DNA of 61,600 bases from an uncultured Opitutia bacterium. GTDB lineage: Bacteria; Verrucomicrobiota; Verrucomicrobiia; Opitutales; Opitutaceae. Numbering within the stretch: the first letter of the stretch is position 1; each line of letters begins with the position of its first letter. The stretch is from NCBI GenBank assembly GCA_903839035.1, contig CAIMAQ010000029.1, forward strand, positions 1 through 61,600, in the 5' to 3' direction. A model generated the notes under the pieces. It searched no databases. It was not told where the DNA came from and saw nothing but the letters and a program-made list of their open reading frames with translations. Position numbers and translations under genes: made by a program. This document shows, piece by piece, positions 10,603 to 52,434 of the stretch.

Positions 10603-12639
10603 TCAAGGGGTGGCCGGCACCGGCAGCCCGGGCCGCTTCCGCGGCGCCCCGCCCGGGTTCACCAGCCGGGCAGTGACAAAGATCATCAGGTTGCGCTTCT
10701 GGGCACTCTGGCCGGTCGAACGGAACAGCCGGCCCAGCAGCGGCAGATCGCCCAGGATCGGCACCTTGTCGTGGACCTTTTTGACTTCCTCCCGCGTCAG
10801 CCCACCCATCACCAGCGTAGCGCCGTCCCAGATTGTGACCTTTGTCGCAATGTCGCGCACCGAAAAGATCGGCTGATAAAACCCCGAGGGCACCGTGACC
10901 GTCGTCCCACCCGAGATCGCGATGCTCGGTCCGCCAAATTCCACGAAGCCGTCGAATTCGGTCACCTTGGGATTGAGATCGAGGCTGATGCTGTAGTTAT
11001 CCTCCTCCACCGTCGGCGTGACCCGGAGTTCAACCCCGACATTGCGCGACGTGAAATCCTGCGGCGTGCCCGCCGTGATCGCAACGCCCGCCGAGCCGCC
11101 GCCGTTCGCACTGCCGGTGCCCACCTGACTCTGGGTCTGGCCGTAGCTCTGCGGGTAACGCATCTCCTGCGCCACCGTGATCGTCGCCGGGTTGCCCGAA
11201 AGCACCGTGACCTTCGGCGCGCTCAGCAGATCCGTCCCCTGCTTCTGCGACAGCGCGCGCACGACCGCCGACACATCGAATTCGCCGATCACACCCGCCA
11301 GCGTCGCGAGCGGACCGGCGGACACCGCCAGGTCAGCGACGCCGGGGATTTGCGGCGCATTGTTCAGGATGGGCAGATTCAGGCCGGGTGAGACGGTGGT
11401 GCCGCCGTCCGGCGTCACGATGATGCCCTCCGGCCGAATAATGCTCCCCTGCTGACTCGAGGCCCGGTTGGCGAACGCCCCTGCGAGGGGGCGGTTGCCA
11501 CTCGTGTAAACCGCCCGAGCCCCGGCGTTCGCCTGGCTGGCCTTGGTCGCCAGGTTCCAATTCACGCCCAACTCTTCCAGCGCGCCGTCCTGCACTTCCA
11601 TGAACTTCGCCTCAATTTCCACCTGTCGCACGTCGTTATACCGCGTGAGGATATTGCGGATCCGTTCCAGGTTGCGCGCCGTCTGCGTCACGACGATCGC
11701 CGTACCGTCGTAGGCCAGGCTCGCCCCCGGCACCGTCTCAAAACCCACCCCCGCCTGCTGGAGAAACGACTTCATCGCCGATGCTTCCCGGCTGCGGGCC
11801 ACGGGGCCGGACGCGAACTCAACCTCGGCCGGCACCGCTCTGGCCGCCGGGTGTTTTCCAGCCGCACCGGCGGCTCCCGCCGGGTGATCACTGATACCGG
11901 CCATCCGCAGCACGGTGGCACGGGTAACCGGGAAAAAGGCGGTTTCCAGGGACGACGTTTCCCCGCCGGGACGCACCACCACCGCATCAGCCTGCACCTC
12001 ATATTGGTAGCCAATGGCCTCCGTCGCAAAATCCAGCACGCGCCGGAGCGGGGCATGGCGGAGCGTGAGCGTGACCGCCGGCGCGCGGTTCTCCGGATCA
12101 AGCAGGACAATGTTCACGCCCTTGGGTTGCACGCCCGTCCGGTCGAATTCCTCCGACGCGGCGCTGAGCGCCACCACCACCTGACTGACGGGAACGCGGG
12201 TAAAACTCACCTCGGGCAGCACGATGTCGTTCAGTTTTACCGCCAACGGGGAAACCATCGCCGGCCTGGCGGGATCGTGGGCGTAGGACGAGGAGAGCAC
12301 CGGGCGTTGCCAGCTTCGCGCCACTTCCGCCATCAGTCGGGCCCGGGTTTGCTCACGGTCAGATGCCGTCTCCCGCGCCTGATCCTGCTCAATCCGGGAG
12401 AGAAAATCCCTGGCTTCAGCGCTGGCCGGATCGCGGGCGATCACTTCGTGGAACGTCTGCTCCGCGGCCTCCGGGTCCCCGGCAAGATACTGGCTGCGCC
12501 CTTGGCGGATGAGTTGTGCCACGGCATCCGATCCGGCCGGGGCCACCGGATCCTCGGCCTTGGCCGCCGGCGCCGTCACTAGCCCCAGCGCAACCGCCAA
12601 TACAGCCAGACTTTTCATCGGTGTCGGGAAAAATGTCAT
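10603..12639 (-). CDS. Secretin (PilQ/GspD family), last gene of a type IV pilus-like operon
   Basis: 678 aa (671 if the ATG at 12618 is used; MKSLAVLAVALG then begins the signal peptide). After a cleavable signal (AKA|ED) comes a TPR-like segment (YLAGDPEAAEQTFHEVIARDP), then secretin N-domains (VNIVLLDPENRAPAVTLTLR). The outer-membrane secretin domain has SAPKVTVLSGNPATI, GVELRVTPTVEEDNYSI, LVMGGLTREEV and VPILGDLPLLGRLFRS. Secretins form gated outer-membrane channels. Gene order (PilMN, PilO-like, unknown, secretin) matches my memory of the Akkermansia Amuc_1101-1098 block. Confidence 0.92.
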   Translation of the reverse strand: MTFFPTPMKSLAVLAVALGLVTAPAAKAEDPVAPAGSDAVAQLIRQGRSQYLAGDPEAAEQTFHEVIARDPASAEARDFLSRIEQDQARETASDREQTRARLMAEVARSWQRPVLSSSYAHDPARPAMVSPLAVKLNDIVLPEVSFTRVPVSQVVVALSAASEEFDRTGVQPKGVNIVLLDPENRAPAVTLTLRHAPLRRVLDFATEAIGYQYEVQADAVVVRPGGETSSLETAFFPVTRATVLRMAGISDHPAGAAGAAGKHPAARAVPAEVEFASGPVARSREASAMKSFLQQAGVGFETVPGASLAYDGTAIVVTQTARNLERIRNILTRYNDVRQVEIEAKFMEVQDGALEELGVNWNLATKASQANAGARAVYTSGNRPLAGAFANRASSQQGSIIRPEGIIVTPDGGTTVSPGLNLPILNNAPQIPGVADLAVSAGPLATLAGVIGEFDVSAVVRALSQKQGTDLLSAPKVTVLSGNPATITVAQEMRYPQSYGQTQSQVGTGSANGGGSAGVAITAGTPQDFTSRNVGVELRVTPTVEEDNYSISLDLNPKVTEFDGFVEFGGPSIAISGGTTVTVPSGFYQPIFSVRDIATKVTIWDGATLVMGGLTREEVKKVHDKVPILGDLPLLGRLFRSTGQSAQKRNLMIFVTARLVNPGGAPRKRPGLPVPATP

Positions 12640-45731: not shown

Positions 45732-45795
45732 CTGGCACCCTCCCCTCGAAACTCGGGCAGGGTGCCAGGGCGCAAACCTGACTTTCTGTTTGCGC
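45732..45795. promoter_or_regulatory. Two tandem hairpins between the phosphorylase and guaB genes
   Basis: CTGGCACCCT (45732-45741) pairs perfectly with 45759-45768, then GCGCAAAC (45770-45777) pairs perfectly with GTTTGCGC (45788-45795). No T-run follows either. They may stop phosphorylase transcripts or structure the guaB leader. Confidence 0.55.
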
Positions 45796-45821
45796 TCGGC
45801 GCCCGTGGCCTTACTGCGTTC

Positions 45822-47465
45822 ATGGCAATCATGACTAAGGTTGCCTCACCCGCCCGCCCCGCGTCCGCCAAGAGTAAAGCGCCTGCCAAGGACACCCTGT
45901 CCGCCCCGGGTTCAACGGCGCCGGACGCTGATTTTTACCTGCCGGCCGACGCGTTTTTCCGCGCGAGCGTTCCCACCGCGCTGACCTTCGACGACGTCTC
46001 GCTCGCGACCCTCTACTCGGAGATCCTGCCCAAGGACGCCGACACCGCGACGGCGCTCTCCGACGCCCTCCGGCTCCAGATTCCTGTCATCTCCTCGGAC
46101 ATGGACACCGTCACCGAGTCGCGCATGGCCATCGCCATGGCGCTCAACGGCGGGCTCGGCCTCATCCATTACAACATGCCGCCCCGCGAGCAGGTGAAGG
46201 AGGTCGCCCGTGTCAAACGTCACATCCACGGGCTCATCCAGGACCCCATCACCGTCACCCCCGGGCAGCTCATCGGCGAAGTCATCGCCATGATCGAGTC
46301 CCGGCGCTTTGCATTCTCCACTTTCCCCGTCGTGGACGCCGCCGGCAAACTCGCCGGCCTGCTCTCCGGCAACGTCGTCAAGGACCGCTACAAGACCAAG
46401 CAGGTAGCCGAGGTGATGACCCCGCGCGCCCAGCTCATCACGGTGCAGGAACGCGATGTGGCCAAGGACCCGATCAAGGCCGCCGACCGCTTTTTCTCCT
46501 CCCATGTCGGCCTGAACAAGATGCTCGTGGTGGATCCCGCCGACCGCCTGCGCGGCCTCGTCACCATTTCCGACGTCGAGAAAATCACCGGCGAGGTCAA
46601 ATCCCGCAACAAGCCCGCCCGCGACGCCCAGTTCCGCCTCGTCGTCGGCGCCGCCCTCTCCCCGGTGCGCAAACCGGACGGCTCGCTCGACCGCGACCAG
46701 ATCCTCACGCACGTCGGCCAGCTCGTCGACGAGCACATCGACACCATCGCCGTCTCCAGCGCCCACGGCCACACCGAGAGCATGGGCGCCGTCGTGAAGC
46801 TCGTCCGTTCTGCCTTTCCGGATCTCACCCTCATCGCCGGCAACGTCACCAGTGCCGCCGGCGTAGCCTACCTCGCCGACTGCGGCGCGAACGCCATCAA
46901 GATCGGCCAGGGTCCCGGCTCAATCTGTACCACGCGCATCGTCGCCGGCGTCGGTATTCCCCAGCTCACCGCCCTCTACGTTGCCAGCGGCGCCGCCCGA
47001 AAAAAGGGCGTCCGCCTCATCGCTGACGGCGGCATCACCAAGTCCGGCGACATCGTGAAGGCCCTCACCCTCGCCGATGCCGTCATCTGTGGCGGCCTGC
47101 TCGCCGGCTGCCGCGAGGCCCCGGGCGAAATCATCGAGATCAGCGGCAAGGTTTATAAGCAGTACCGCGGCATGGGCAGCCACGCCGCCATGAAGGCCGG
47201 ATCCGCCAGCCGCTACGGCCACGACAAGGTCGACACCACCCGCAAGGCCGCCGCCGAGGGCATCGAGGCCCTCAAGGAAGTCTCCGGCTCTGTCGACGAC
47301 GTCCTCGCCAACCTCATTGGCGGCGTACAATCCGGCATGGGCTACCTCGGCGCCGCCACGCTCCCCGAACTGCGCGCCAAGGCCCGCTACGTGCAGGTCA
47401 GCGCCGCCGGCCAGAAGGAAGCCGCCCCCCACGACGTGATCGAGGTCGCCACCCGCAAGGGCTAA
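45822..47465 (+). CDS. guaB: IMP dehydrogenase
   Basis: 547 aa, about 50 longer than usual because of a Lys/Ala/Ser/Pro-rich N-terminal extension ([18 protein letters not shown]). The core starts at [18 protein letters not shown]. It has two CBS domains ([38 protein letters not shown]), the catalytic loop [10 protein letters not shown] with Cys369, and the IMP site [17 protein letters not shown]. The flap reads [12 protein letters not shown]. It oxidises IMP to XMP for GTP synthesis. Starts at 45822 or three codons later (45831) are equally plausible. Confidence 0.94.
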
Positions 47466-47589
47466 CCCGCCGTGGACGGGACTTGAGCCCATCCCACGCC
47501 GTCCGAATTTTCTAGCCGCAACCCGCCGCCAGGCATTTACTTGCAGCTGCCAGCCGCCCGCGCGTCGAAACCGCAAAATATTCCGGCCC

Positions 47590-48237
47590 ATGAGGAACCC
47601 TGCCCGCCTGTCTGTCGTCATAATCCGGGTGAACCGCTTCCGCCACATCGCTGGACTGATCTTGGTCCTTAGCCTGCTCCCGCTCATCGGCCGCGCCACG
47701 ACCGTGATCGCGCCCGACTTTGATTCCCTCGTCAAACAGGCGGACTTCGTCGTCCGCGCGGTGGTCAAATCCAAGACGGCCGAGTGGCGCAACGACGGGC
47801 GCAACCGCCACATCATCACCAAGGTGGTGCTCGACGTCCGGGAAATCATCAAGGGCGCGCCGGCTTTGCCGCTCGTGCTGGAAATGCTGGGCGGCCGGAT
47901 CGGCACCGACGAAATGGTGCTGGAAGGCGCCCCCAGTTTCATCGTCGGGGATGAGCAGATCCTGTTTGTCCGGGGCAACGGCCGGCAGTTTTTCCCGTTG
48001 GTCGCCATCATGTACGGCCAGTTCCTGGTCGCCCACGATTCCAGCTCCGGGCAGGATTTCATCCAGCGGAGCAATGGCAGTCCCCTTTATAACGTGAAGG
48101 ATGTCACGTTGCCGATGACGGCGGCCAATGCCCTCGGGCTCCCGGCGCCCCGGCCCCTCACAGCGGCGGAGTTCACCGGAAAAATCCGCGCCTCCCTGGC
48201 TCAGCGCCCGGTGGTGCCTCCCGCCAATGCCAATTAA
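47590..48237 (+). CDS. Secreted protein of unknown function upstream of a matrixin protease
   Basis: 215 aa. An N-terminal signal or anchor (HIAGLILVLSLLPLIGRA) precedes a beta-rich domain with DFDSLVKQADFVVRAVVKSK, HIITKVVLDVREIIKG and GDEQILFVRGNGRQFFPLV. I do not recognise a named family. Its stop lies inside the next gene (11-bp overlap with the matrixin start), so the two are co-translated. Roles as a partner, inhibitor or chaperone of that protease are guesses from position. Confidence 0.75.
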   Translation: MRNPARLSVVIIRVNRFRHIAGLILVLSLLPLIGRATTVIAPDFDSLVKQADFVVRAVVKSKTAEWRNDGRNRHIITKVVLDVREIIKGAPALPLVLEMLGGRIGTDEMVLEGAPSFIVGDEQILFVRGNGRQFFPLVAIMYGQFLVAHDSSSGQDFIQRSNGSPLYNVKDVTLPMTAANALGLPAPRPLTAAEFTGKIRASLAQRPVVPPANAN

Positions 48238-49492
48238 ACCTGCGAAATTTGTCACCGTCGGGCTGGCCGGCCTGGGACTCGCCGCCCTCTTCTGCGGGTT
48301 TGCCTACATCACGAATTCCACCACCGGCCTGCCGCTCAGATGGCCTCCCGGGCTGATTCCCATGCGGATCATGGTGGACGACGTTGCGCCCCTGAGTGAC
48401 GGGCTCACCCGGGCCAAATCCATCCAGGCCGCCATGGTGGATCCGGTGCGGGGTTGGAACCTCAACCTCGGCAGCGCCCAGTTCTCCGCCACGATCTTGC
48501 CCGTGGGGAGCGGCGGCGCCGACGGCAACCACCTGAGCGAAATTTTCTATTCCGACGCGCCCTACAGCATGGCGTGGGAAACCAACACCCTCGCCGTGAC
48601 CACGGCCTGGTACAGCGGCAATCAGCGCGTGGAGGCCGACATAGTTTTGAATAATTCGTTTACCTGGGATTCCTACCGGGGCGCGCACCGGGGCAGCGTG
48701 GTCGACCTCCAGCGCGTCGCCCTCCATGAACTCGGCCACGTGCTGGGCCTGGATCACCCGGATGAAGCCGGACAAACGGTGGCCGCCGTCATGAACAGCC
48801 ATGTGAGCGATCTCGATTCACTCGCGTCCGACGATATCACGGGCGCCCAGCGTCTTTACGGTCCGCCCGGGATTCCGGCCAACGACAATTTTGCCTCGGC
48901 CGTGGCGATCAACTTCAGCGGGACCTCCACCACCGTCACCGGCTTCAACACCAATGCGTCCAAGGAGATCGGTGAACCCAACCATGCGGGCAACAGCGGC
49001 GGACGTTCCGTCTGGTGGAAGTGGACCGCCCCGGGTCCCGGCAACGTCACCGTTACCACAGCCGGCAGCGTGTTCGACACCACCCTCTCCATCTACACCG
49101 GCACCACGGTCTCGGGGCTGACCGCGGCGGCCACGAACTCCACCTTGGACGACGTGCAGCCCGGCGTCGTGCAGTCCAGCGTGGGTACGTTTAACGCCGT
49201 CGGCGGCACGGTTTATTATATCGCCGTGGATGGCTTCAATAATTCCGACGGCCACGGCGCCGACTCCGGCGCGATCACGCTCAATCTCAGCTACACGGCC
49301 CTCGGCAGCACCACCACCAGCACGACCACGACTTCCACGGCACCTTCCTCTTCCATCACAACGACCACCATTCCGCCCACCGGCGGCGGATCGTCGGGCG
49401 GTGGTGGTGGCGGAGGCGCGCCCAGTGTCTGGTTCCTCGGCGCGTTGAGCCTTCTGGTCTTCGCGCGTCGGCTGCTGCCCACCGAGGAATGA
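48227..49492 (+). CDS. Matrixin-like zinc metalloprotease with a GlyGly-CTERM-like sorting tail
   Basis: 421 aa. N-terminal signal/membrane segment (FVTVGLAGLGLAALFCGFAY); protease domain with HELGHVLGLDH (H167, H171, H177, catalytic E168) and the Met-turn/matrixin ending VMNSHVSDLDSLASDDITG. A PPC-like beta domain follows (PANDNFASAVAINFSG, SVWWKWTAPGPGNVTV, FDTTLSIYTG). The tail is a Thr-rich linker, then GGGSSGGGGGGG, a short hydrophobic segment (WFLGALSLLVFA) and RR, the layout of GlyGly-CTERM. It overlaps both its upstream neighbour and, by ATGA, the rhombosortase-like gene downstream, which is the protease class expected to process this tail. Confidence 0.87.
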   Translation: MPIKPAKFVTVGLAGLGLAALFCGFAYITNSTTGLPLRWPPGLIPMRIMVDDVAPLSDGLTRAKSIQAAMVDPVRGWNLNLGSAQFSATILPVGSGGADGNHLSEIFYSDAPYSMAWETNTLAVTTAWYSGNQRVEADIVLNNSFTWDSYRGAHRGSVVDLQRVALHELGHVLGLDHPDEAGQTVAAVMNSHVSDLDSLASDDITGAQRLYGPPGIPANDNFASAVAINFSGTSTTVTGFNTNASKEIGEPNHAGNSGGRSVWWKWTAPGPGNVTVTTAGSVFDTTLSIYTGTTVSGLTAAATNSTLDDVQPGVVQSSVGTFNAVGGTVYYIAVDGFNNSDGHGADSGAITLNLSYTALGSTTTSTTTTSTAPSSSITTTTIPPTGGGSSGGGGGGGAPSVWFLGALSLLVFARRLLPTEE

Positions 49493-50100
49493 ACGCCCTG
49501 AGCAGGACGGCCAGGAAACTACCGTGGGGATTTGTCCTCGTGGCCCTCGCCGCCCTGGTCTTCCAATCCCACGGCGGCTGGCGGGCCTGCCTGCTGTACG
49601 ACCGGACGGCCATCATCGACGGGCAGTGGTGGCGGTTGTGGACCGGGCACCTGGTGCATTTCGGCTGGCCGCACTTCGTGGCCGACACCGGGCTTTTTCT
49701 CATCCTCGGATTTATCCTCGGCAAGACCCAATCCTGGCTGTTTCCCGTCGTGCTCCTGTTGCTGCCGGCAGTCATCAGCGCCGCGATGTATTTTTGCGCT
49801 CCCGGCATGTCCCGCTACGGCGGTCTCAGTGCGGTGGACCTCACCTTGCTGCTCTTTGTCGCCGGCCAGGGATGGCAGCACAACTGGAAGGACTGGTTCT
49901 GGCCGGCGGTCCTGGCCATTTACGTGGGGGAAATCGTCCTGGAGTCCACCGTCGGTCATGGCCAGGGCGGCGGCATGATTCGTTTCGACGACCCGGAAAT
50001 CCACGTCGCCACGTCCGCGCATCTCGCCGCCGCCGCCTGCGCCCTGTTGATGCTGGCGGTGGGATTGGGCAAAAAATCCCCTCGACCCCGGGTTGCTTGA
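49489..50100 (+). CDS. Rhombosortase-like rhomboid protease 1
   Basis: 203 aa, six predicted membrane helices. GQWWRLWTGHLVHFGWPHFVADT matches the rhombosortase/rhomboid L1 region with its conserved His residues. The Ser-His dyad is S114 in RYGGLSAV and H178 in HVATSAHLAAA. Rhombosortases cleave GlyGly-CTERM tails; the substrate is probably the matrixin encoded just upstream, with which this gene shares a four-base ATGA overlap. The residue after the catalytic Ser is Ala where Gly is usual. Confidence 0.85.
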   Translation: MNALSRTARKLPWGFVLVALAALVFQSHGGWRACLLYDRTAIIDGQWWRLWTGHLVHFGWPHFVADTGLFLILGFILGKTQSWLFPVVLLLLPAVISAAMYFCAPGMSRYGGLSAVDLTLLLFVAGQGWQHNWKDWFWPAVLAIYVGEIVLESTVGHGQGGGMIRFDDPEIHVATSAHLAAAACALLMLAVGLGKKSPRPRVA

Positions 50101-50187
50101 CCCGGGTCGCGCTACGCAATTCCGCCCCGGCTCCGTCGTATCTGGAAGCTGGTTTTCCAACCCGCTTCCCCTACTGTTACGCCCCAG

Positions 50188-50805
50188 GTGGCCACCGAAC
50201 CCGAGACAACCGCACCGACTCCACCCGCGCGGGCGCTGCCTGTGGCGACGCTGGCCATCGCCCTGGTTTCCGCGGTCATCTTCTGCGTTCCGGCGCTCAA
50301 CCGCGGGCTGCTCTACCACCGCGACCAGATCCTCCACGGCCAGGTCTGGCGCGCGTGGACCGGGCATCTCGTACATTACAGTTCGAGCCATTTCCTCTGG
50401 AATCTTGTCATCTTCGTGGCCGCCGGCTGCTGGCTCGAGCTGGTCCGCCCCCGCTCCGCCCGCTGGTTCTACCTCGCCTGCCCGCCCGTCATCGCGGCGA
50501 CGCTGCTGATCGGCGAACCCACCCTGCTGGTTTACGCCGGCCTTTCCGGCCTCGCGAGCGGCGTGCTGGTCTTCCTGGCTTTCGTGCAGTTGAGCGAAAA
50601 CAACGCCGAGCCCGCCTGGTTCTGGGTGGGTGTCTTCGGTCTGGTCATCGTCAAGATCGCCCTCGAAACCGTCACCGGCGCCCCACTGTTGGTGCACGAC
50701 TCCGGAAACTTCCGCGTCGTGCCCCTCGCCCACATCAGCGGCGGCTGCAGCGGCATCCTCGCCTGGGCCATCACCCGCCCGGTGCCCCCGGTCCCCGCCG
50801 CTTGA
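50188..50805 (+). CDS. Rhombosortase-like rhomboid protease 2
   Basis: 205 aa, six predicted membrane helices. HGQVWRAWTGHLVHYSSSHFLWN parallels the same region of the preceding gene. The dyad is S120 in YAGLSGLASG and H182 in VVPLAHISGG, both in canonical surroundings. It begins at a GTG (50188), 87 bp after the first paralogue. Sequence similarity outside the motifs is low, so the duplication is old or the two came together from different sources. Different substrates or sequential cleavage are possible. Confidence 0.83.
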   Translation: MATEPETTAPTPPARALPVATLAIALVSAVIFCVPALNRGLLYHRDQILHGQVWRAWTGHLVHYSSSHFLWNLVIFVAAGCWLELVRPRSARWFYLACPPVIAATLLIGEPTLLVYAGLSGLASGVLVFLAFVQLSENNAEPAWFWVGVFGLVIVKIALETVTGAPLLVHDSGNFRVVPLAHISGGCSGILAWAITRPVPPVPAA

Positions 50806-50889
50806 CAAGCTTTTGCCTTGCCGAGACGCAGGCGGGCGGGTTTTTACTTTTTGGCAACTGGGGACTCCTCTCTGGCTGCACTCTCCAGC

Positions 50890-52434
50890 ATGTCGCTTAC
50901 TCCTTTTCGCAGCCAGCTGATCGCCGATGTGGGCATTTCCCTCGGTGACGAGGGCAAGGGCCGCCTCATCCCCGAGATCGCCAACGAGCTCCGCGATACC
51001 TCCGCACCCGTCTCGGTCGTGCTCAAGGTCAACGGCGGCGCCAACTCCGGCCACACTGCCGGCGGCATCAAGCTCAACCTCCTCCCCGCCGGCGTGGTGG
51101 TGCAGGGCGCGGCGCACCTCTGCATCGGCAGCGGCGTCGTCGCCGACCCGCGCAAGATCTGGTGGGAAACCAAGCCGCTCGAGAAAAAGGGCTACGCCAT
51201 CCTCTCCCGCCTCGTCATCGACGAGCGCACCATGGTCTCCGACCTCACCCACCGCCTGCTCGACCTCGCGTGGGAGGACTACCGCACGCACATCCTCGCC
51301 GAGGAGCCCCGCGGCTCCACCGGCCGCGGCATCACGCCCGCGTACCTCGACGAGGTCGGCCAGTGGCAGATCACCTTCGCTGACTTCCAGGCCGGCCCCA
51401 ACTACTTCGCCCGCAAGCTCGCCCAGCGCGCCGATCGCGCGCTCCGGACCATCCAGCACGTCTGCCGCGTGAGCCCGGAGACGTTCGCCGGCTTCTTCGA
51501 CAAGCTCACCGCCGCCGAGCTCCGCGCCAACGCCGAGGGCATCGAACTGGGGGTGTTCGATAAGGACGAATTCGACTTCACCCGCTTCCGGGGAGCTACG
51601 CCGTTCACCCTGAATCTCGACACGCTGACCGAAGCCTACTGGAAAGCCGGCACCGCCCTCGCGAAGAACATCGGCGAGGTCCGCGAGCTCATTCTCCGCG
51701 AGCTCCGCGCCGGCCGCACCATCATCGGCGAATTCGGCCAAGCCTACTGGCTCGACAAGCGCCACGGCTACTCGCCCAACGTCACCGCCTCGCATACGTT
51801 CACGCCGGAATTTTTCGAGAGCGCCGGCATCCCCGTGCAGCGCATCCACACCTTTGGCGTGGCCAAGGCCTACGACACCAAGGTCGGCACGCACACGTTC
51901 CTCACGCAGATGGACGACGCCCACCCGCTGGCCGCGATCCTGAAGCGGCTCGAGTTCGGCACCAGCACCGGCCGCCAGCGCATGGTCGGCTGGTTCGACG
52001 CCGTCGAAAAGGGCGATGTCCTTCGCTACGGCGGCTACCAGGACCTCATGATCAACAAGGCCGACGCCCTCACCTACGCCGGTGAGTGGAAGGGCGACCT
52101 GCTCATCTGCACCGCCTACGAAGACGCCGCCGGCAAGCGCTACGTCCATGTCCCGCGCAACGAGGCCGTCCGCAAGACCCTGCGCCCCGTCTACAGCAAG
52201 CACCCCGGCTGGACCGAGGACATTTCCACCGTCCGCAAATTCGCCGACCTGCCCCTCAACGCCCGTCGCTACGTCGCCGCGATGGTGAAGGCCACACTCA
52301 ACGCCGCCTATGCCAACGAGTCCTGGCCTGCCGCGGAGAAGATTCCCAACCTCCGCTACCTCGGCGTCGGCCCCGACCCGTCCCAGATCATCAAGGATGT
52401 GCCGGGTACGCTGGAGTTGGTGAAGCTGGCCTAG
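50890..52434 (+). CDS. Divergent adenylosuccinate synthetase (PurA-like)
   Basis: 514 aa against about 430 for typical PurA. The GTP loop reads [18 protein letters not shown] (catalytic Asp20) where PurA has GxQWGDEGKG. [12 protein letters not shown] keeps the catalytic His55, and [13 protein letters not shown] and [10 protein letters not shown] match later signatures. It should join IMP and aspartate to adenylosuccinate. The missing Trp and extra length set it apart from the main PurA group. Start ATG 50890; the frame upstream to 50818 is not family-like. guaB, the other branch from IMP, lies 3.4 kb upstream. Confidence 0.82.

Follow-up and report, generated by a model that had tools for sequence, protein, structure and literature searches.

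A matrixin metalloprotease encoded with a predicted TIMP-like protein, a dedicated rhombosortase and a second rhombosortase in Opitutaceae

Gene order at the matrixin locus

We analyzed a 61,600-nucleotide stretch of DNA (hereafter the window: positions 1 to 61,600 of contig CAIMAQ010000029.1, assembly GCA_903839035.1) from an uncultured Opitutia bacterium of the family Opitutaceae, phylum Verrucomicrobiota. It carries four consecutive genes on the forward strand, which encode a secreted protein (here called UP), a matrixin metalloprotease with a GlyGly-CTERM-like tail, and two rhombosortases in tandem, RS1 and RS2 (Table 1). An initial annotation, made from the letters of the window, had described the matrixin and the two sortases as a self-contained cassette in which both enzymes serve a single substrate, and had left UP as an unknown secreted protein. 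The four reading frames and their order, with the matrixin followed by two tandem rhombosortases, were confirmed. UP proved to be the most informative member of the cassette: it is paired with the matrixin and is predicted to fold like the animal inhibitors of matrix metalloproteases.

The matrixin matches PF00413 (M10A) at 46.8 bits, against a cut-off of 24, and its sequence contains both the zinc-binding HExxHxxGxxH motif and the Met-turn. Neither the sequence nor the alignment shows an obvious pro-domain after the signal region and ahead of the catalytic domain. When a profile of the matrixin alignment was searched against PDB sequences, NHL-like repeats in the longer members dominated the matches, and the search was uninformative on the protease. 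The frames of UP and the matrixin overlap by 11 bp and those of the matrixin and RS1 overlap in an ATGA, while RS2 follows RS1 after a gap of 87 bp without overlap; translational coupling, which the initial annotation had extended to the whole set, can therefore be upheld for UP, the matrixin and RS1 but not for RS2.

Conserved gene order, which had been proposed as a sign of a genuine cassette, was found within the genus: UP, matrixin, RS1, RS2 and purA follow one another, with guaB upstream, in 5 of 12 genomes (G161, G167, G169, G170 and the window genome, G000, an assembly of 3.39 Mb in 126 contigs that is 97% complete). The names guaB and purA are those of the families to which, by inspection of their sequences, we take the two flanking genes to belong. 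The counts of gene order in the genus, of IEHKPGYTG tails, of UP across the family and the phylum sample, and of RS1- and RS2-profile matches are tallies or matches as listed. For the wider distribution, we considered 46 named loci with an RS1-clade gene scoring over 200 bits, including those of G161, G167, G169 and G170. A tail-bearing frame lies directly upstream of RS1 in 32 of these loci, and UP with a matrixin in 27, in 24 of which the tailed neighbor is the matrixin itself. guaB is found upstream in 11 loci (8 together with purA, 3 with guaB only) and purA downstream in 8; the cassette is thus enclosed by both in 8 loci, and RS2 is present in 4 of these. The order guaB-UP-matrixin-RS1-purA is thus also seen where RS2 is missing, and RS2 seems to have been added within this cassette. 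G169 has another UP-matrixin unit, with the tail GGGGGAPSTWF, directly upstream of the four-gene cassette (L078, 2890-5950). Rfam and tRNA scans of the window returned no matches.

Table 1. Features of the matrixin locus, in window coordinates
Feature	Position	Strand	Description
guaB (IMP dehydrogenase)	45762..47465	+	Left border of the locus; presumed family, named by sequence inspection
UP	47590..48237	+	215-aa secreted protein with a predicted NTR/TIMP-like fold; mature N-terminus predicted at Thr37
UP signal-peptide region	47590..47697	+	Residues 1-36; probable cleavage after Ala36, from the alignment of relatives
Matrixin metalloprotease	48227..49492	+	421 aa; PF00413 match, HELGHVLGLDH zinc site, VMN Met-turn
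GlyGly-CTERM-like tail	49379..49489	+	TGGGSSGGGGGGG, APSVWF, hydrophobic helix, RR; TIGR03501 score and alignment of 23 tails
RS1 rhombosortase	49489..50100	+	Ser114/His178, GLSA motif; clade that goes with the GGGAPxxWF tail
RS1-RS2 gap	50101..50187	+	Homologous to a stretch still GlyGly-tail-like in two relatives; window copy by itself not significant
RS2 rhombosortase	50188..50805	+	GTG start, Ser120/His182, GLSG motif; second clade
purA (adenylosuccinate synthetase)	50818..52434	+	Right border of the locus; presumed family; longest frame, true start maybe further in

Two rhombosortases and the tails beside them

The identification of both enzymes as rhombosortases was borne out by TIGR03902 (cut-off 84 bits), which RS1 matches at 103.8 bits and RS2 at 110.4 bits. 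They are the only two genes in the genome above this cut-off, with two weaker matches elsewhere at 19.8 and 15.8 bits. Their Ser-His dyads are intact at S114/H178 and S120/H182, as originally given; the Ser and His columns are intact in 46 of 46 aligned rhombosortases, and the Ser motif reads GLSA in 12 of these and GLSG in 34. In a tree of the 46 sequences, RS1 falls into a clade of 13 (support 100/99), and RS2 lies outside it, grouped with genes from other genera in a separate, well supported set of 8. A recent duplication of RS1 as the source of RS2 was rejected on the basis of these separate clades. When profiles of the two types were run over the 252 genomes of the family, the RS1-clade profile scored at least 225 bits in 64 genomes, with the next match at 136 bits, and the RS2 profile scored at least 371 bits in the five tandem genomes only, with the next match at 236 bits; since high RS2-profile scores are limited to these five, RS2 was also rejected as the usual partner of the matrixin. 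RS1, in turn, accompanies the matrixin in other genera with no RS2 alongside. Together with the separate clades, this speaks against the initial view, in which the two sortases form a single unit acting on one substrate. RS1 belongs, as the dedicated sortase, to a more widespread cassette that mostly lacks RS2.

The matrixin ends in PTGGGSSGGGGGGGAPSVWFLGALSLLVFARRLLPTEE, a tail that was found in the translation as initially described, with a Gly run, a hydrophobic helix and a basic end. Both the sequence and an alignment of 23 tails display the build of a GlyGly-CTERM, namely a Gly motif followed by a hydrophobic helix and a basic C-terminal end, so that this part of the initial assignment stood. 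The score to TIGR03501 did not follow (14.4 bits, just below the cut-off of 15.5), and we therefore call the tail GlyGly-CTERM-like only. A TIGR03501 search of the whole genome at E 10 returned two tails, at 15.2 and 14.4 bits and none over the cut-off; a family tail profile was therefore built from the 23 aligned tails upstream of RS1-clade genes. Both of these tails gain support from the profile. The matrixin tail, a member of it by construction, scores 55 bits. Away from the window, the profile finds a DUF1501 protein (G000:C70; 39 bits, with 88.3 bits to Pfam DUF1501) and, as a weaker third, a 951-aa frame with the tail GNGAGSMGGWFGAALGMLALLRW (G000:C46; 20.8 bits). With these further tailed proteins in the genome the cassette is not closed, and its description as self-contained is not supported. 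We infer that the two proteins are candidate clients of RS2.

The tail and RS1 travel together. The pattern GGGAPxxWF, sought in DNA and counted wherever it matched, C-terminal or not, occurs in 58 of the 252 family genomes, comprising 55 of the 64 with RS1 and 3 of the 188 without (Fisher p 5e-42, shared ancestry ignored), which leaves nine RS1 genomes lacking the pattern and three pattern genomes lacking RS1 as exceptions. The reversed pattern, used as a control, matches 7 genomes. For comparison, we took 20 regions around UP, with 21 matrixins, from 18 genomes chosen for lacking RS1: none of the 18 matrixins that were complete at the C-terminus carries a Gly tail. The GGGAPxxWF tail thus acts like a suffix that accompanies RS1, which fits the independent-motif view put forward in a 2026 Vibrio paper (PMC13393428). 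As the number of pattern matches reaches nine in some RS1 genomes (the window genome has one), RS1 may also serve many substrates in some of them. At L084 (2568-2678), the matrixin is tailless and a short frame with HGWFHAVFKLFALGRRAISRQA, perhaps a worn tail, lies directly before RS1. At L038 (3-2108; G161:C54), a third RS1-clade gene is immediately preceded by an open frame of some 700 codons. This frame has a GGGGGGGAVSPWFLGSLFLLLARR tail in its middle, and after the tail come a stretch resembling a signal peptide and another domain, which may reflect a fusion or an assembly error.

The gap between RS1 and RS2 bears on the origin of RS2. A search with the family tail profile, made without the gap in mind, recovered the RS1-RS2 gaps of two relatives, G170 (E 0.004) and G169 (E 0.084), whose frames read RRGGGGEFGGWFSGALALL and GWFSGALALMWWLRCRRKK, respectively. 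Tails beside RS2-side rhombosortases elsewhere have a similar build (e.g., GGGSMEAWFAGMLALLGVIRW). The window gap is DNA homologous to the gaps of these relatives and scores only 1.0 to 2.3 bits. In our reading of these sequences, RS2 came in with a substrate gene, and the gap looks like what is left of the end of that gene; we include this step in the best explanation of the locus as a whole, which we consider evenly poised between right and wrong. It is less probable, although still to be taken seriously, that the resemblance arose by chance and that the gap is conserved as the promoter or the start region of RS2, with no substrate lost. In all five genomes, the most conserved bases of the gap do stand immediately ahead of the RS2 start, and the low score of the window copy is as such a reading would have it. 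However, the 963 kb of loci contain 22,305 stop-to-stop peptides, which were scored with two tail profiles and in which true tails were told apart from non-tails by eye; the best peptide other than the true tails was that of the G169 gap under one profile and that of the G170 gap under the second. Both have a Gly run or a helix and a basic end in the expected order, and a scan of 47400-51000 for sigma-70 consensus sites found a single site, which lies outside the gap.

The secreted protein encoded before the matrixin

Across the collected loci, 50 of 51 distinct UP frames stand directly before a matrixin-profile match (the exception being L145), and the downstream neighbor contains HExxHxxGxxH in 48 of the 51. 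Considering that these loci had been found through RS1 or UP, the genus provides the fairer test: matrixins occur in 8 of its 12 genomes, UP occurs in the same 8, and UP lies just upstream of all 10 of the 10 matrixins, with 1 of 11 UP matches (G169:C4) having no matrixin match alongside. This match, at G169:C4:119428-119727, is partial (model positions 2-101, 118 bits) and is the third in that genome. UP is encoded by 120 of the 252 family genomes. A sample of 387 genomes of the phylum had it in 27, of which 5 belong to other families. Four of these five more distant relatives adjoin a matrixin-profile match, three with the zinc motif; two of the neighbors are strong matches, one of them in reversed order, and two are weak (50 and 23 bits), the zinc motif being absent from the part of the sequence covered in the 50-bit match. 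Beside the fifth, no matrixin was found within 1.5 kb downstream and the roughly 0.6 kb covered upstream. UP also keeps its matrixin in genomes that lack RS1. UP and the matrixin are, in short, a pair.

Searches of Pfam, NCBIfam and PDB sequences for a name for UP gave no convincing match, and the protein was characterized from the alignment of its relatives and from its predicted structure. The signal peptide was predicted from residue conservation at positions -1 and -3: Ala is found at -1 (Ala36) in 47 of 49 relatives, and A, G, S, T, C or V at -3 in 43 of 49. The residues that would follow cleavage are conserved in their own right (Thr37 in 44 of 49, Thr or Ser at 38 in 43, Val or Ile at 39 in 49, and Pro42 in 49), and residues 37-44 rank fourth in conservation among 168 eight-residue windows.

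A first structural model of UP, from 8 sequences, was poor (pLDDT 64.8), with the same families at the top of its matches and two non-NTR rows (3q6c and 3rd4) in its VIA list. An AlphaFold2 model from 49 aligned sequences reached a pLDDT of 89.9. With the latter, the best 20 Foldseek matches in the PDB are all to TIMP-1, TIMP-2, agrin NtA or the NTR domain of PCOLCE, led by TIMP-2 at E 4.4e-4, the only match at or below 1e-3; those below the best 20 are mostly ribosomal proteins. With VIA-align, TIMP-3 scores Z 9.0 (root-mean-square deviation 3.1, 116 aligned residues), TIMP-1 8.7 and TIMP-2 8.2, and 50 of the 50 listed rows (Z 9.0-6.9) are TIMP, NtA, PCOLCE NTR or the complement chains C3, C4, C5 and cobra venom factor. 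These complement chains align to UP near their C-terminal end, which we take to be the NTR-type C345C domain. In the listed TIMP rows, the alignment begins at residue 37 to 39 of the UP model, set on residue 1 to 3 of TIMP in a single register, and residue 37 is where the signal peptide is expected to be cleaved. The model thus places UP in the NTR superfamily, with an NTR-type OB barrel and flanking helices. TIMPs inhibit matrixins through their N-terminus, the first residue of which chelates the zinc. As the Z values are moderate, the argument is drawn from the uniformity of the match list and from the position of the N-terminus.

A proposed mechanism and its alternatives

In the explanation that we favor, to which we would give an even chance, the genes form a cassette for matrixin display that brings along its own safety catch; it is made up of inhibitor, matrixin and dedicated sortase, with RS2 as a later arrival. 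UP would be exported by a cleavable signal peptide and fold as an NTR (TIMP-like) domain, and its free N-terminal Thr-Thr/Ser would enter the zinc site of the adjacent matrixin, keeping the protease inactive in the periplasm. Since the matrixin has no obvious pro-domain, an inhibitor encoded by the preceding gene makes sense. The matrixin would be anchored in the inner membrane via its C-terminal tail until RS1 cuts that tail, whereupon the protease would go to the outer surface, probably via a system like the type II secretion system (T2SS). RS2 would have inserted between RS1 and purA in the company of a substrate gene that later disappeared, and may now serve other tails in the genome or act as a spare. 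The part of this proposal that concerns UP itself is more tentative, and we put it somewhat below an even chance: UP would be a bacterial TIMP in mechanism, that is, a disulfide-less NTR domain that uses its free N-terminal Thr to chelate the zinc of the adjacent matrixin. If so, the phylum would have a matched pair of matrix metalloprotease and TIMP in which the protease is brought to the surface by its own sortase and the inhibitor stays behind, and sorting itself would be the activation step. Export by a T2SS-like machine is possible from the genes present: contig C79 encodes a GspD-like protein (316 bits, cut-off 351) together with a GspE-like one (540 bits, cut-off 630). In the window itself, a secretin-like gene at 10657-11706 on the reverse strand matches the C-terminal half of the GspD model (157 bits).

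Several observations weigh against this explanation. TIMPs carry an N-terminal Cys (CxC) and disulfides. In UP, the column of that Cys is held by Thr (Thr37 in 44 of 49, Cys in none), and cysteines are not conserved: the mature part of the window protein has none, and 25 of 49 relatives have one to three. UP has no sequence match to TIMP or to any PDB chain (PDB searched at E 10), and PF00965 (TIMP) is absent from the nine Pfam families that match the 49 members weakly (E up to 1). Each of these nine matches a single member, the best being Mig-14 (E 0.0072), and one member matches NCBIfam LIC_20196 (E 0.0018); these matches either count against the proposal or lie beside it. The TM-scores of the NTR matches range from 0.21 to 0.46, and Z values of 7-9 are moderate, given that 7-8 is common for this tool. 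Two matrixins adjacent to UP (L075 and L113) lack the full HExxHxxGxxH, 13 of the 46 RS1 loci have no tail, UP or matrixin nearby, and in one of the 27 loci with UP and matrixin the matrixin is tailless. The T2SS proteins stay below the curated cut-offs (best GspD 316 of 351 bits, best GspE 600 of 630), the matrixin tail misses that of TIGR03501, and the counts across genomes ignore shared ancestry. Finally, the TIMP-like protein of Listeria is reported to be cut by its metzincin, with phenotypes that do not rest on inhibition (PMC8235301).

This last observation leads to a rival reading, which we judge unlikely although it deserves attention: UP may be shaped like a TIMP without being an inhibitor, and act as a folding helper, as an export adaptor, or as a protein cut and released by the matrixin, as has been proposed for Tim and Mtz in Listeria. 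The fold and the pairing are evidence for such a role as much as for inhibition, and the 11-bp overlap of UP and the matrixin would suit a helper equally well. A conserved and presumably free mature N-terminus at the position of TIMP residue 1, however, is needed for inhibition and not for a helper, and with no obvious pro-domain in the matrixin, something else may have to hold the protease off. We consider it improbable that RS1 and RS2 both act on the one matrixin, for example for display and release, as the initial annotation proposed. The tandem is indeed kept in 5 of 12 genomes of the genus with both dyads intact, and in Vibrio cholerae two rhomboid proteases are described as processing one substrate with different outcomes (PMC11389362); against this stand the tailed matrixins that RS1 accompanies without RS2 in other genera, the membership of RS2 in another clade, the tail-like gap in two relatives and the further tailed proteins in the genome. 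Nor do we expect the locus to be an ordinary dedicated pair of rhombosortase and GlyGly-CTERM protein, of the adjacent kind already published (PMC3237569), with RS2 as a spare and UP as an unrelated secreted protein, because a pairing of UP and matrixin in 50 of 51 and 10 of 10 cases is hard to call incidental and UP retains the matrixin in genomes without RS1.

Both halves of the favored cassette have known counterparts. The norm assumed initially, of one rhombosortase serving several substrates, is incomplete: in the table of the rhombosortase survey, one enzyme is listed for 103 of 104 genomes and two enzymes, each with an adjacent target, for one genome, and the dedicated adjacent pairs published there include one in Opitutus terrae (PMC3237569). 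The locus resembles these pairs (Haft and Varghese 2011), which include a Verrucomicrobia case, in having the target beside the rhombosortase and a match to TIGR03902, and differs from them, as described, in having two rhombosortases of different clades in a row. It also resembles RssP and VesB of Vibrio cholerae, where an intramembrane Ser/His rhomboid cuts a Gly/helix/basic tail from a secreted protease that takes the T2SS route, and where the cut allows surface attachment after export (PMC6219818); for RS1, cleavage would follow by analogy. The Vibrio enzyme is described with a trypsin-like zymogen as substrate among six GlyGly-CTERM proteins, in contrast to the matrixin, the adjacent dedicated enzyme and the TIMP-like neighbor found here.

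On the side of the inhibitor, the nearest likeness is Mtz-Tim of Listeria and other Gram-positives, a secreted metzincin and a structurally TIMP-like protein whose genes are adjacent and regularly paired. The Tim of related Firmicutes is exported with an ordinary SPI signal peptide (PMC8235301), and UP seems to have one too. According to the same report, that system is phage- or mobile-element-linked, has the protease gene first and, in Listeria itself, has Tim as a lipoprotein, whereas the present one belongs to a Gram-negative phylum, is often found between guaB and purA, mostly has UP first and includes a sorting enzyme. A tblastn search of UP against a phage collection gave no match at E 1. 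The fold of Tim is a Phyre2 call of about 60% (PMC8235301), and we liken UP to Tim by the description of Tim given there. Compared with animal TIMP-1, -2 and -3 and their matrix metalloproteases, UP shares the predicted NTR fold, the matrixin neighbor and the place of the mature N-terminus, and differs in its Thr for the first Cys, its lack of conserved Cys and its lack of a sequence match. The periplasmic inhibitor AprI of Pseudomonas, described as making a TIMP-like contact with alkaline protease (PMC8235301), is another precedent for the inhibition of a secreted bacterial metzincin, although, unlike AprI, none of the 49 UP members matches a Pfam inhibitor family.

Dedicated rhombosortase pairs and a Gram-positive pair of metzincin and TIMP-like protein are thus already known, and the Listeria authors state that, to their knowledge, bacterial proteins with a structural likeness to TIMPs had not been recorded before (PMC8235301). 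Among the titles listed by our literature search, none pointed to a bacterial TIMP, and we do not claim for any of the present findings that they are absent from the literature. As far as this search goes, what is new is that a metzincin/TIMP-like pair occurs in a Gram-negative phylum and is linked to a sorting enzyme of its own, and that, in the predicted structure, a conserved mature N-terminus lies where the TIMP mechanism would need one. If our explanation is right, the animal pairing of matrix metalloprotease and TIMP has a Gram-negative counterpart with a clear, testable N-terminal mechanism, and the family genomes that encode UP are available for comparison.

The rhombosortase clades of the family, which naturally differ in the tails encoded beside them, also make the way in which these enzymes discriminate between substrates directly testable. 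Next to the RS2-side rhombosortases of L039, L046, L055, L056, L064, L067, L070 and L074 lies a gene of about 300 aa that ends in IEHKPGYTGGG (or close to it) and a helix, which makes another type of adjacent pair, and the family genome G173 has a rhombosortase beside an IEHKPGYTGSG-tailed gene and no RS1-clade match. A further deep rhombosortase clade (100/100) is found at L051, L053, L062 and L072, where nearby tails follow APAPHVSHSGGGGGG or similar.

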